Shown here in pieces: positions 17,489 to 23,521 of a DNA stretch of 23,521 bases (the first letter of the stretch is position 1; each line of letters opens with the position of its first letter). The notes beneath the pieces are model-generated. The model worked only from the letters and a program-made list of their open reading frames with translations, did no database searches and was not told the DNA's origin. Made by a program: the position numbers and the translations under genes. The DNA is from a virus: the IMG/VR virus record IMGVR_UViG_3300005441_000033, positions 1 through 23,521 of that record. The stretch is one strand, 5' to 3'.

Positions 17489-18283
17489 CTAATCGTCTGA
17501 GCTGATCGAATATGAGTCAACACCGACGGAAACCACAGTAGGCCAGGTAATCTGAACAACAGTTGCTTCCAGGTACTGAATAGCGTCGGCAGGACCAGTC
17601 ACGGTAAACGTATCGTCTTCGTTGTCCTCGACCTCGAGCGTAACGATGACGTCAAATATGGTGATCAATTCGGCCAGAGTGGGGATTCTCGGCGGAGTCG
17701 ATGCAGTTCCATATAGAACGTCCTCGACCGCGGCCAAGGTAATCGGATGAATATCGCGAGAATCAATAATGATGTGGGCCGACTGTGAATATCCCGACAT
17801 CGCCACCGGACGAGTGGTGATGTTCCAGCTGAAATTCGTCGGTTCTGTCGATTCAGCAATACTCTCACGACTGAGTTGCGACGGAGATACCAATGCGTTG
17901 TACACGATGTGCAACTTATAGCCGTGCGAAACGCCGTCAGTATCGTTACCCACCATGGTTCGGTAGGAAAGTCCAAATGACTTTCGCCGCTGCTGAGCAA
18001 GATACAGACCGGGTCGAACCGTCGCAGTACCGTCGCATTGCGCGAATTCCGTAGGATATGTGTAAGCCTCAATAGTGGCGGCGAACTCCTCCGCAGAGGA
18101 CACATTCAGATACTTCACACCATCCAAGTAATACGCTCGTGGTTCCCCACCTGATGGAGCCTCAGCGACCGAGGTGAGTCCATTCCATGCAACGCCGGGG
18201 GAAGAATCGATATACAGAACACCACGATCAACACCTGCTTCGAAGAAGCGCTCTCCCGCAGCATTCCAATTCAGCCTTGTCAT
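17489..18283 (-). CDS. Second tail tube protein (paralogue)
   Basis: 264 residues; ATG at 18283 with GAGGAGG about 9 bases upstream. Residues 1-200 align along their length with the protein at 18860-19747: shared blocks GVLYI, VAWNGLT, EEFAATIEAYTYPTEFAQ (EEFGATIEAYTYPDEFAQ in the paralogue), FGLSYRT, and YKLHIVYNAL. The C-terminus differs: instead of the IPSVTG domain it has a short beta stretch (TFTVTGPADAIQYLEATVVQ) ending DSYSISSDD. Codon use is less GC-biased than in the first copy, which suggests lower expression. It may be a minor tube component at one tail end or an alternative tube subunit; the sequence does not decide. Confidence 0.82.
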   Translation of the reverse strand: MTRLNWNAAGERFFEAGVDRGVLYIDSSPGVAWNGLTSVAEAPSGGEPRAYYLDGVKYLNVSSAEEFAATIEAYTYPTEFAQCDGTATVRPGLYLAQQRRKSFGLSYRTMVGNDTDGVSHGYKLHIVYNALVSPSQLSRESIAESTEPTNFSWNITTRPVAMSGYSQSAHIIIDSRDIHPITLAAVEDVLYGTASTPPRIPTLAELITIFDVIVTLEVEDNEDDTFTVTGPADAIQYLEATVVQITWPTVVSVGVDSYSISSDD

Positions 18284-18859: not shown

Positions 18860-19747
18860 TTACGCGAAGGTGATGAGCCAGTCGTCGTCCGTGACGGCCG
18901 GGAACTTGTAGCCCTGCGCCGGAACAGCATTGACGACGGTGTTGGCCGTGATCGGACCGTACGCACCCGCCGGAACAACCTCGCCGTCGATCATGTAGAT
19001 GACGCCGGTAACAGACGGGATCGTGATGATGTCCGTCGATGCGTTGTAGGTCGGAGCCGTCGGCGTCGCCGTGACGATGGTTCCAGTGAACAGCGCCATC
19101 ACCGCAGCCGGCAGAGGAAGGCTCGGGTCCGTGCCCACCGTGCCGTAGAGCAGATCCTCGAGCGCGGCAAGCGCCAGCACGTCAACCTTGGTCGAATCGA
19201 TGACCAGACTGGCCGTCGGCTTGTAGGCGACACCACCAACCGTTCCGACCTCGACCGGCGTTGTCGTGAGCTCCCAGCTGAAAGTGATAGCTTCCGGCGA
19301 GTCGTTGATGGACGCGTAAGCCTTCTCCGACGGCGCTGCCAGAGCGTTGTAGATCAGATGCAGCTTGTATCCGTGGTCGGTGCCGGCCAGATCGTTCCCC
19401 AGCCGCGTGCGGTAGGACAGACCGAAAGTCTTGCGCGTCTGCTGACCCACGTAGACGCCACCCTCGTGTACGAGCATGCCGTCGAACTGAGCGAACTCGT
19501 CCGGGTACGTGTAGGCCTCGATGGTGGCGCCGAATTCCTCGACGGACACCAGACTCAGGTAGGGAATGTTGTCCGCGTAGGTCTTGGTGACCTCCGCACC
19601 GGTCGGCGACTCCGTAACGGTGGTAAGACCGTTCCAGGCGACACCATCGTTGAACACACCCGAGCTGTTCGGGATGTACAGGACGCCATGGTCGACACCG
19701 GTTTCGTACAGGCGCTCACCGACCTGGTCCCAAAGGAGCTTGGTCAT
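18860..19747 (-). CDS. Major tail tube protein with C-terminal beta domain
   Basis: 295 residues; ATG at 19747 with GAGGAGAAG upstream. Residues 1-210 are the tube domain, similar throughout to the 17489-18283 protein. Residues 226-295 form an added domain (TPTAPTYNASTDIITIPSVT, VIYMIDGEVVPAG, then GYKFPAVTDDDWLITF) that also ends the capsid fusion protein at 20391-22406. Tail tube proteins of lambda (gpV) and others carry a C-terminal Ig-like domain on the tail surface, so a surface decoration is likely. Codons are almost always C/G-ending, as in the capsid gene, in line with very high expression; this makes it the main tube subunit. Confidence 0.88.
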   Translation of the reverse strand: MTKLLWDQVGERLYETGVDHGVLYIPNSSGVFNDGVAWNGLTTVTESPTGAEVTKTYADNIPYLSLVSVEEFGATIEAYTYPDEFAQFDGMLVHEGGVYVGQQTRKTFGLSYRTRLGNDLAGTDHGYKLHLIYNALAAPSEKAYASINDSPEAITFSWELTTTPVEVGTVGGVAYKPTASLVIDSTKVDVLALAALEDLLYGTVGTDPSLPLPAAVMALFTGTIVTATPTAPTYNASTDIITIPSVTGVIYMIDGEVVPAGAYGPITANTVVNAVPAQGYKFPAVTDDDWLITFA

Positions 19748-20390: not shown

Positions 20391-22406
20391 CTAGGCCGAC
20401 GGACGCTTGAAGGTCCAGGGACCGTCGACCACCGTGTCGGTGAAGAAGTAGCCCGACGCCGGAGTCGCCTTGACGTTGATCGAGGCACCGGCCGACAGAG
20501 CGCTCTGCGCACCCGCCGACAGCGTCGCGTTGGTGTCAGCGTTCTTGTAGACCACGCCGGTCACGGACGGGATGGTCACCACGCCGGTGCTGGAGACGAA
20601 GCTCGGCTTGACCGGGGTCGCCAGGGTGTCCGTGGACGCCGAGGTCGCCCGAATGACCAGAGCCGCCTTCACCTTGGTCAGGGCACCCGAAACTCGGGTC
20701 TCCATCAGGTACTTCAGCTGGTTGTAGTCGATGTCGAAGTCGTCGAACAGGTTGACCTCGCCGCCCTTGTCGGCGCCGATGTTGTAGTCCTGCAGATTGA
20801 CGATGATACCGATGAGACCCGAGACCTCGTTCATCGGTTCGACGGTGACGATCCGGTCGACACCCAGCGCCTCGGCGACCTCGGCACGGTTCTTGTAGTA
20901 GCGCCGGCCCTCGAGGTCCTTGGCCTTCATGAACTTGTTGAGGTTCTTGATCGTGGTGTAGAAGGTCGGCGTACCCGTTCCCTTGTAGAACTCCATGCCG
21001 TCCATGACGGCATCCACGACCTCCTCGTAGTTCGAGTTGGCGTCGTCCACGTTCACCGTCAGAGTGGTGACGTAAACCTCGTGGTCGTTCGCGATGGAAC
21101 GGATGCCGTCGCCCGAGGACGCACCGATCGGGTCCTTGATCTTGTCCTCGTCGGACACGTCACGACCGTCGCCGATCAGGATGGCACGCGCCAGTTCCTC
21201 CTCGAGCATGAGGCGCATCTCGGCCTTGAGCCACGCCACCATGTCGAAGTCGGTGATGTCCAGCAGGTCATCCCGGTCCAGCTTCTGCTTCTTGTAGACC
21301 GTGGTCGGGCTCGTGGTCCGCTTGGTGACGCCGAACCACTCTTCCTTCTTGTAGTTGCCCTTGATGTAGCCCTTGGCACGGGCGTCGTCCTGGGTCAGAT
21401 CGGCCACGAGGGTCTTCACCCGCGAGAACGGCGTGTGACGGGTGCCGTTGAGAACGTCAGCCACCCACTCGGTACGCCGCTTGTCGAACTCGGGCGTACC
21501 GGTGATGTTCCGCGCGTCCGGGAACAGGACCGAGATGTTGTCGATACCGTGCGCGAGCGCGTAGTTCGTCACGGCGTCCTTGAAGGAACCGATCTTCATG
21601 GCCGAAGCCACGATCCCCTTCACGTCCTCGTGGGACAGCGTGTGCTGCTGGGCCGAACCTTCGCCCTGGTCGTTCTTCGTCTGGTCGAAGACGTTTCGCA
21701 TTTCGTCGTTTCCTTCCTGGTGGGCGTCGCCCTCGTTGGTGGCCGAGTGTTCGGCAGAAGCAGCGGCGGCCCGCTCGAGCGCCGCGCCGATCATGTAGTG
21801 GAGGACGTTCTTTTCCTTCTCGGACATCGCGTCGTAGATGTCCTGGATGGTCTCGCCGTCGTCTTCCGCGTCGTCCATGTTGTCGCCATCGGCATGCTCG
21901 ACGGTGTCGTCATCCTCGTCTTCGTCACCTTCATCCTCGACGAACTCCAAGAGCTCACCGCTGTGGATGATGGCCTCGTCGTCCAGCTCCGTCACATCGT
22001 CCGGATCCGAAGTGTGCTGAATCCGAACATAGTCGATCTTCGCCCCGGGATTGGCACCGGCGAGGACGAGACTGACCTCACGGATGTTGCCGTGGTGAAC
22101 GACCTTGGACTTCTCCACGAGCTGATTGGCGTAGATCGACAGCTTGTCGATGTCCTTGTGCTGGACCAGAAGCTTGGCGTTCTGGCCCTGCTTGGTCGTG
22201 TTGAAGTAGCCGTGTGCTCGAACACCATCGGGAACAACCTCGAGGATGGCGTGGCCCAGAACATTGTCGGCACTGTTGTGACCGTGCTGCCAGACCAACG
22301 GAACCTGCTGCCCGTGCATGTGCTTGAAAGCCTCGGGCGTGATGATCCGATCGTCGGAGCACTTGAGACCTGCCTTGGTGGCGTACCCGCTGAAATCGGG
22401 TTCCAT
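20391..22406 (-). CDS. Prohead protease-scaffold-major capsid fusion
   Basis: 671 residues; ATG at 22406 with GAGGAG about 9 bases upstream. Residues 1-130 are an HK97-type prohead protease: VPLVWQHGH supplies the likely catalytic His (H41) and REVSLVLAGANPGA the Ser (S112). Residues 137-235 are a very acidic linker and scaffold-like part (DEDEDDDTVE, then ETIQDIYDAMSEKEKNVLHY). Residues about 236-595 are the HK97-fold capsid protein (YKKQKLDRDDLLDITDFDMV, LEEELARAILIGDGRD, LMETRVSGALTKVKAALVIR). Residues 597-671 are a C-terminal beta domain shared with the tail tube protein. A possible internal start at 21701 (M236) would give capsid protein alone. Codons are almost all C/G-ending, the strongest bias in the window. 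Confidence 0.92.
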   Translation of the reverse strand: MEPDFSGYATKAGLKCSDDRIITPEAFKHMHGQQVPLVWQHGHNSADNVLGHAILEVVPDGVRAHGYFNTTKQGQNAKLLVQHKDIDKLSIYANQLVEKSKVVHHGNIREVSLVLAGANPGAKIDYVRIQHTSDPDDVTELDDEAIIHSGELLEFVEDEGDEDEDDDTVEHADGDNMDDAEDDGETIQDIYDAMSEKEKNVLHYMIGAALERAAAASAEHSATNEGDAHQEGNDEMRNVFDQTKNDQGEGSAQQHTLSHEDVKGIVASAMKIGSFKDAVTNYALAHGIDNISVLFPDARNITGTPEFDKRRTEWVADVLNGTRHTPFSRVKTLVADLTQDDARAKGYIKGNYKKEEWFGVTKRTTSPTTVYKKQKLDRDDLLDITDFDMVAWLKAEMRLMLEEELARAILIGDGRDVSDEDKIKDPIGASSGDGIRSIANDHEVYVTTLTVNVDDANSNYEEVVDAVMDGMEFYKGTGTPTFYTTIKNLNKFMKAKDLEGRRYYKNRAEVAEALGVDRIVTVEPMNEVSGLIGIIVNLQDYNIGADKGGEVNLFDDFDIDYNQLKYLMETRVSGALTKVKAALVIRATSASTDTLATPVKPSFVSSTGVVTIPSVTGVVYKNADTNATLSAGAQSALSAGASINVKATPASGYFFTDTVVDGPWTFKRPSA
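21699..21718 (-). promoter_or_regulatory. Possible internal ribosome site for separate capsid protein
   Basis: In frame inside the fusion gene, AGGAAGG (21712-21718) stands about 10 bases before an ATG (21701-21699, residue 236), which is followed by RNVFDQTKND. The position falls at the border between the scaffold-like part and the capsid part. Use of this start is inferred, not shown. Confidence 0.5.
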
Positions 22407-22423
22407 TTTGACAGTCTCCTCTC

Positions 22424-22969
22424 TTACTTGTCGTTTGACTTGTTCCGTGCTCCGACGGAGCCCGTATTGCGAAGTCGTCTGATCCGTTCTTGAATGGCTT
22501 TGACCTTATCGCTCAGATCTTTGACTCGCTCTTCAAGGATCTGGTCTTTGTTCTTGTCGTAGTACTTCTTCGAAGCTTCTGCCGCAGCATCTTTCTGCTT
22601 TTGTGTCTTCTTGTCGTACTTGGATGTTGGGTCGGATCGCTTCTTGTCTCGGTACTTTTCGACAGTATTCTTATCGACACCGCTACGCTTTTGCGCAGCT
22701 TCCACCAACGCCTTGAGAACTTTTTGAAGTTGGTCAAGCTTTGCTTGAAGCCTGGTCGCTCGTTCTTCTAGCTCTTTGTGACGCTGAGCTCGGGACTTTT
22801 TAACAGGAGCCCTGCGAACCGGCAATGCTTTGACCGGTTTGGTGGACTTTCGAGACGGTAGTGCTTTGACCGGTACAGGCAAAGCTTTTTTCTGATTACC
22901 TACCAATTCTCTGGTGCGGAGATAATACTCACGGCGTTTTACCGGATCGTATGCGTGAGTGAAAGACAT
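22424..22969 (-). CDS. Basic coiled-coil head protein, possible scaffold or minor head protein
   Basis: 181 residues; the ATG at 22969 overlaps the portal TGA (TGATG); a GTG three bases earlier is the alternative. The N-terminus (YDPVKRREYYLRTRELVG) is a motif I recall from several actinobacteriophage head operons. A Lys/Pro-rich part with repeated KALPV units (residues 27-62) follows, then a long coiled coil (KELEERATRLQAKLDQLQKV) and a second one near the C-terminus (LEERVKDLSDKVKAIQERIR). Very basic overall. The place between portal and protease suits a head morphogenesis role, but the protease fusion already has a scaffold-like part, so its function is uncertain. Confidence 0.75.
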   Translation of the reverse strand: MSFTHAYDPVKRREYYLRTRELVGNQKKALPVPVKALPSRKSTKPVKALPVRRAPVKKSRAQRHKELEERATRLQAKLDQLQKVLKALVEAAQKRSGVDKNTVEKYRDKKRSDPTSKYDKKTQKQKDAAAEASKKYYDKNKDQILEERVKDLSDKVKAIQERIRRLRNTGSVGARNKSNDK

Positions 22970-23521
22970 CACGGACCCAGATCAGTCAACATACTGTCCA
23001 CTGCCAACTCCATCTGATCCATTTGCGCCAACGCAGAATCGAGAGCTTGGTTGTCGTCTTCGACAACCTGACCTTCGATCGTAGGTATGTTGGACGAGGG
23101 AAGTTGGTTGTTTTGTGGCATGTTACTGTTGACGAGCTGATCTGCCTTGGGGTCCTTGGAGGGCTTCCAGCCGATCGCTTGACGAATATCGTTGGACGAG
23201 AAGATCTCGTTACGAGTAAATTTGTCAGCGATCTCGGCAATGTCAGCGACAGGAACCAACTTGAACGGATCACGGAACGCCATGATGGACTGCCCTTGCG
23301 AACGGGCAGTTTTGGTCAGGAAGGTACGCTTCATTGCTTCTACAATAGATTGAATGATCGGATCGATCGTTCGATTGTAGTAGTTCTTCATGGCCTTTTC
23401 ATCGGCAGTGCCGTTCATTACTTCTGGTGTCAAGCCCAGTTCGGCATACAGCTTGTCCGTAAGATACTCCACCTGCTTCAACAGGTTGTTTTCTACTGGA
23501 CGATTGAGCTGCGTGATCTTC
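22969..23521 (-). CDS. Portal protein, C-terminal part (5' end outside window)
   Basis: The frame is open to the window edge at 23521 and ends with TGA at 22969, giving 183 residues of the C-terminus. It contains blocks typical of the portal stem, wing and C-terminal region: VEYLTDKLYAELGLTPEVMN, NYYNRTIDPIIQSIVEAMKR, FKLVPVADIAEIADKFTRNE, and IRQAIGWKPSKDPKAD, the last two being the well-known 'allocate next site' part of HK97-like and SPP1-like portals. A Gln/Asn-rich, acidic tail follows. The portal forms the dodecameric ring for DNA entry and tail joining. Position just upstream of the capsid genes agrees. Confidence 0.88.
   Translation of the reverse strand, partial: KITQLNRPVENNLLKQVEYLTDKLYAELGLTPEVMNGTADEKAMKNYYNRTIDPIIQSIVEAMKRTFLTKTARSQGQSIMAFRDPFKLVPVADIAEIADKFTRNEIFSSNDIRQAIGWKPSKDPKADQLVNSNMPQNNQLPSSNIPTIEGQVVEDDNQALDSALAQMDQMELAVDSMLTDLGP

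Follow-up and report, generated by a model that had tools for sequence, protein, structure and literature searches.

The gene described here very probably makes two proteins from one mRNA. The first is a 73 kDa fusion of a prohead protease, an acidic linker and a major capsid protein, and the second, a 48 kDa product comprising the capsid protein alone, is predicted from the sequence to start at an ATG within the frame that has a Shine-Dalgarno (SD) sequence of its own. The gene lies on the minus strand of a 23,521-base IMG/VR virus record, the whole of which is referred to below as the window.

A fused protease-capsid gene

The fused ORF occupies positions 20391-22406 (minus strand), with its ATG at 22406-22404 and an SD-like AGGAG at 22416-22420 (minus strand) serving this main start. 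It encodes 671 aa (73.5 kDa), and residue numbers in the text are those of the fusion, one residue to one codon. The original prediction, which omitted the strand, had both protease and capsid in a frame of 671 residues, and Pfam bears this out. Peptidase_S78 (PF04586) matches residues 4-127 (22026-22397, minus strand; E 3.6e-5, 24.4 bits against a cut-off of 21), which makes the N-terminal domain an S78 prohead protease, and Phage_capsid (PF05065) matches residues 358-584 of the same uninterrupted ORF (34 bits against a cut-off of 24.2; E 2.6e-8). A PHROGs match to phrog_3270 spans residues 1-622 of the fusion (E 7e-242).

An AlphaFold model of the fusion, built from 48 aligned rows and with a mean pLDDT of 76.6, has a well-folded protease part at residues 1 to about 116. 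H41, S90 and E110, which we take from the S78 motifs to be the catalytic residues, are invariant across the 48 rows. In the model the protease is followed by a linker of residues 117-235 (21702-22058, minus strand) with a pI of 4.05 and 40 aspartates and glutamates against 5 lysines and arginines. The linker had been predicted to be acidic, helical and scaffold-like. Its acidity is confirmed, but most of it is disordered in the model and helices are found only at 187-193 and 196-216; a scaffold role for the linker may be proposed. M236 sits in a disordered stretch (217-254, pLDDT < 50) between the linker helix and the capsid, and helices at 259-285 precede the capsid itself.

The HK97-fold major capsid protein, recognized by Pfam and by its fold, takes up residues ~281-590 (20637-21566, minus strand). 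Foldseek matched the modelled capsid part to HK97 (1ohg_A) with an E value of 1.9e-9, and VIA-align superposed it on the same structure with Z 16.4 (rmsd 3.7, 243 residues aligned) and on that of the GTA (6tb9_B5) with Z 17.5 (rmsd 3.2, 247 aligned). A sequence search of solved structures gave no capsid match, the best being a chitinase at E 0.44. In the model alignment residue 104 of HK97 2fs3_A, presumably the first residue of the mature gp5 capsid protein, falls on residue 281 of the fusion. Residues 236-280 (21567-21701, minus strand), with a helix at 259-272, resemble a short delta domain at the N-terminus of the capsid product and are probably cut off during maturation.

Residues ~591-671 (20394-20636, minus strand) form a C-terminal beta domain in the AlphaFold model, which is likely to be a surface decoration; Flg_new_2 of Pfam matches residues 620-655 below its cut-off. 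Roughly the last 80 residues (584-665) share 42% identity with the C-terminal end of the same phage's major tail protein (20394-20636 against 18875-19105, minus strand), so that one small beta domain, probably a surface decoration, serves head and tail alike. Two minus-strand genes, at 17489-18283 and 18860-19747, match the major tail protein family phrog_2645 and flank a phrog_4338 gene, so this phage probably has two major tail proteins. In the fusion of Lactococcus phage P078 a Big_2 Ig domain takes the place of the small beta domain at the C-terminus.

The neighbours of the fusion are of the usual kind: it is preceded by part of a portal gene and a gene for a coiled-coil protein, and after it come genes for DUF7253, the tail terminator, the major tail protein and the tape measure. 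The annotated records of relatives have the same gene order, and members of the phrog_3270 family share the same gene over its whole length together with the same neighbours, the portal before it and the tail terminator and major tail protein after it. The coiled-coil-like gene between portal and fusion (22424-22972, minus strand; 182 aa; phrog_12541) is a candidate for a separate scaffold. In Microbacterium phage DizzyRudy the gene at this place bears the note 'scaffolding protein', while in some of the related Streptomyces and Arthrobacter phages the fusion follows the portal gene with nothing in between.

The original prediction set the fusion against the usual state of separate genes, but it is a known arrangement. 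The fusion is matched by 244 INPHARED records, and earlier papers describe it for Arthrobacter clusters AM, AU and AN (PMC5513430, which terms the AM and AU fusion unusual), for Microbacterium clusters EE and EL (PMC7302621) and for Rhodococcus cluster CF (PMC13313380). Similarly, Effantin et al. 2010, as cited in PMC8814770, termed the capsid gene of Gifsy-2 tripartite. The fusion is ordinary in its family, and what is new is the near-universal internal start. A full-text search of the literature within its reach, which did not extend to Garneau 2008 (1706) or Effantin 2010 (Gifsy-2), turned up no reference to a start codon inside genes of this family. None of 13 annotated records of family members lists a second, shorter CDS, and therefore the family's major capsid protein is probably mis-annotated in them.

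A predicted internal start and its conservation

Just inside the C-terminal end of the linker coding region is the sequence AGGAAGG (21712-21718, minus strand), followed by the in-frame ATG of codon 236 (21699-21701, minus strand), exactly as first predicted; the AAGGA of this motif ends 9 nt ahead of the ATG. The conserved start, described below, predicts a nested CDS for the capsid alone (20391-21701, minus strand) of 436 aa and 47.7 kDa.

Relatives were collected in two sets. The first was drawn from IMG/VR (80 loci), genome contigs (33) and INPHARED (12) and comprised 126 aligned genes, of which 125 cover the site (L109 does not). In every one of the 125, a start codon stands in the M236 column or in one next to it (ATG in 111, GTG in 12 and TTG in 2). 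An SD was scored where one of its 5-mers ended 4-12 nt upstream of the start codon; by this rule it is present at 110 of the 125 sites and at only 122 of 1687 other in-frame ATGs (7.2%). Under a narrower spacing of 3-9 nt from the AAGGAGG core, a limit that proved too tight, the figures are 80 of 125 and 82 of 1687. The search peptides in the first-set loci lie away from the site (DFDIDYNQ in 110 loci, MDGMEFYK in 6 and NYKKEEWF in 2), and the peptide covering the site itself recruited none of the genes.

The second, more distant set was found with Lactococcus phage P078 and a Lachnospiraceae prophage as queries. A start codon is present in all 68 of the genes that cover the site and an SD in 65; 13 of the 81 rows were left out as not covering it, four of them with intact frames (L247, L252, L255 and L295). 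Among the search peptides of the prophage query, one (KDMKHNVF) covers the start, and 6 of the 68 genes contain it. At least one contig, IMGVR 3300035080_000012, is common to both sets.

Combining them gave 197 aligned ORFs. The longest frame was used at each locus; loci where it was shorter than 300 codons were dropped, as was L306, a duplicate of phage 1706. The 197 ORFs reduce to 173 representatives at <90% identity, two of which do not cover the site. Every one of the remaining 171 has a start codon (148 ATG, 21 GTG and 2 TTG), at the exact column in 166, at +1 in four and at -3 in one. The SD 5-mer is present in 153 (66/74 and 87/97 in the two G+C classes), and most of the 18 without the strict motif retain AAGG or GGAG. 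The G+C content of these 171 genes runs from 31 to 66%, they belong to phages as diverse as actinophages, Lactococcus phages and gut phages, and the site is retained down to ~33% protein identity. Since relatives share ancestry, the row counts are not counts of independent events; on a FastTree tree, parsimony requires at least 14 changes of the internal start codon, all of them among ATG, GTG and TTG. The Lactococcus phages P078, P1046 and 1706 (L125, L126 and L306) have TTG, a rare start, with a good SD. Conservation of the SD-start pair in relatives had been put forward as a check on the prediction, and the comparative genomics strongly supports a second start at codon 236 for a capsid-only product.

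The pair might instead be a relic, left when separate protease and capsid genes fused and the old capsid start was inherited, to be little used today. Streptococcus phage phiARI0923 makes such an origin by loss of a stop codon plausible: its S78 protease gene is separate and lies just 5' of the capsid gene (the two genes at L307, 1560-3370), and its standalone capsid is distantly related to the capsid part of the Lachnospiraceae prophage member (23% identity, E 4e-6). It is possible that phiARI0923 gives a picture of the state before fusion. However, a disused SD and start would be expected to decay, and here they have persisted over the whole range of base composition and protein divergence given above. 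The phiARI0923 capsid also has 128 residues ahead of the matched region, against ~38 counted from the internal start in the fused relative, so its start lies elsewhere. We consider a relic very unlikely.

Selection on the nucleotide sequence

The site stands out when the alignment is searched without reference to it. In a blind scan of all 1392 alignment columns over 116 representatives of the 126 first-set genes, the column that most often combines a start codon with an SD is that of M236 (97/113). The gene's own start comes second (79/114), and no other column exceeds 13. Raw duplex energy alone discriminated poorly, ranking the site first among all in-frame ATG, GTG and TTG codons of the gene in just 43 of the 125 cases, and the position-specific motif was used instead.

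When synonymous codons are drawn anew and the amino acids kept, an SD arises on average at 67 of the 125 sites and at 77 at most, against the 110 observed. In the 34 genes of gut or Firmicutes type 30 are observed where the null averages 9 and never exceeds 16. In the genes of actinophage type the null is itself high (mean 58/91) because the conserved Glu-Gly residues invite an SD. Over the SD of these actinophage-type genes, glycine is encoded by GGA in 69 of 87 cases against 12% gene-wide, and glutamate by GAA in 103 of 137 against 27%; the nominal binomial probabilities are 6e-47 and 1e-31, for rows that are not independent. The 14 non-ATG codons at the internal start in the first set comprise 12 GTG and 2 TTG, yet GTG makes up just 17% of the valine codons (1096/6463). 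The SD is found in more than one codon phase among relatives, and in 91% of the 125 genes the mRNA is predicted to fold more weakly near the site than over the gene as a whole. Together, the codon choice and the synonymous null argue for selection on the nucleotides.

These observations bear on two other explanations. Release by self-cleavage has been proposed for the capsid protein of the Gifsy-2 tripartite gene, and the same might hold here, with the fusion as the only product, self-cleavage freeing the capsid and the site conserved for its amino acids as a protease-recognition or hinge peptide. The invariance of N238 and F240, just after M236, in the 48 aligned relatives indicates that the protein sequence matters too, and the Gifsy-2 genes show that a fused gene can exist without a conserved internal start. 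Conservation for the peptide fits poorly, however, with an SD that stays while the peptide encoded over it varies (EEGRR, EGTGA, EGADD, KEGTW, GGNDN and many more), with the unusual codons over the SD, GGA above all, and with a methionine that has given way to GTG or TTG in 23 of 171 representatives and in none to a non-start codon. A fusion acting alone is accordingly an improbable reading.

SD-like sequences within genes have also been proposed to slow elongation, and in this gene such a stretch might hold back ribosomes so that the protease folds ahead of the capsid part, without any initiation. The location of the site in an interdomain linker would suit this role. A pause site, however, has no need of a start codon at a set distance, and one is present in all 171 representatives. 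Nor would pausing account for the repeated switches among the three start codons or for the weak folding of the region, and we regard this as the least probable of the explanations, hardly to be expected at all. A dual-start capsid gene, from whose single mRNA both the protease-linker-capsid protein and the capsid alone would be translated, is highly likely on this comparative evidence.

Comparison with related systems

Genes with one frame and two starts are known from lambda (C/Nu3), Mu (I/Z) and the herpesviruses (UL26/UL26.5). In each, the part unique to the longer product is the head protease, the short product is the scaffold, which is needed in more copies, and the capsid protein is encoded by another gene. 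Like C/Nu3, the present gene has a predicted further start in the same frame, preceded by an SD, within its protease gene, but codons 236-671 encode an HK97 capsid fold rather than a scaffold, and here the capsid protein itself would be the shorter product. The gene would work like C/Nu3 yet is no member of that class.

In HK97 the gp4 protease and the gp5 capsid protein are products of two separate genes, and the protease is packed together with capsid subunits bearing the delta domain. The likeness lies in the S78-type protease and the HK97-fold capsid, and the predicted capsid-only product would be equivalent to gp5 with a shorter delta domain.

Gifsy-2 resembles the present gene in having a protease, a middle part and an HK97-type capsid in one gene. 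It differs in its ClpP-type protease (CLP_protease), where the protease here is S78 by Pfam, in its capsid family (Phage_capsid_4, phrog_133) and in the lack of a conserved internal SD-start. A blind scan of 18 Gifsy-2 family representatives (<90% identity, from 78 sequences) recovered the gene start in 9 of the 18 and no internal column in more than 2. All 18 share an ATG at codon 221 of Gifsy-2, but just two of them have an SD before it. The protease-scaffold-capsid fusions of the small-genome phages in Arthrobacter cluster AN and Microbacterium cluster EE (phrog_2263) also join an S78 protease to a capsid but have little sequence similarity to the present gene. They have no start-plus-SD column common to most members and no internal column above chance, in scans confined to few sequences (4 representatives of 8 for AN and 3 of 8 for EE). 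As Gifsy-2 has no comparable column, the conserved start is a trait of the phrog_3270-type family and not of fused capsid genes generally.

A model for protease dosage

Ribosomes starting at 22406 would make the full 671-aa protein of protease, acidic linker and capsid, and those entering at the internal SD-ATG (21718-21699) would make a 436-aa capsid protein with its short delta-like N-terminal part. As the HK97-fold subunit at the C-terminal side is common to both products, they could co-assemble, capsid-only subunits presumably forming the majority. The full-length copies would bring the protease and an acidic, scaffold-like arm into the prohead; this longer stretch would be carried by the fusion alone. 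The protease would then trim both forms near residue 280 and be lost or degraded. The ratio between the two starts would thus set the dose of protease per head.

The original prediction reckoned that 415 protease copies per head would be produced if only the fusion were made, an arithmetic that assumes a T=7 head for this virus, and proposed that the internal start supplies capsid protein alone in excess. This last claim draws no support from the predicted SD pairing, which is no stronger at the internal start than at the main start. The means are -7.8 kcal/mol (internal) and -8.4 kcal/mol (main), the internal pairing is stronger in 54, equal in 3 and weaker in 67 of 124 genes, and in the window the values are -6.5 and -8.4 kcal/mol, respectively. 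With the internal pairing on average slightly weaker, the sequence does not tell which form is in excess. A full-length product alone before maturation, with a capsid N-terminus produced by cleavage far from residue 236, had been named as grounds for rejecting the second start. Such an N-terminus would not count against it, since the alignment of HK97 residue 104 with residue 281 implies that maturation probably trims both products to one mature N-terminus near 281, far from 236.

Implications

Phages and herpesviruses must equip every prohead with only a few proteases. A fused protease-capsid gene looks incompatible with such a low dose, as each subunit would carry a protease, and the conserved internal start would resolve this puzzle for the present family. 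What is new is a nested start, in phase, from which the major capsid protein itself would be made; if the reading is right, this would be, to our knowledge and from the literature searched, the first dual-start gene of that kind. Dual initiation can be tested in phages of Arthrobacter, Gordonia, Streptomyces and Lactococcus. On balance we think it somewhat probable that the entire capsid family, from actinophages to the Lactococcus 1706-like phages and many gut phages, builds its heads by dual initiation from plain subunits and subunits armed with protease and scaffold, so that the ratio of the two starts would fix the number of proteases and no separate gene for protease targeting or scaffolding would be needed.
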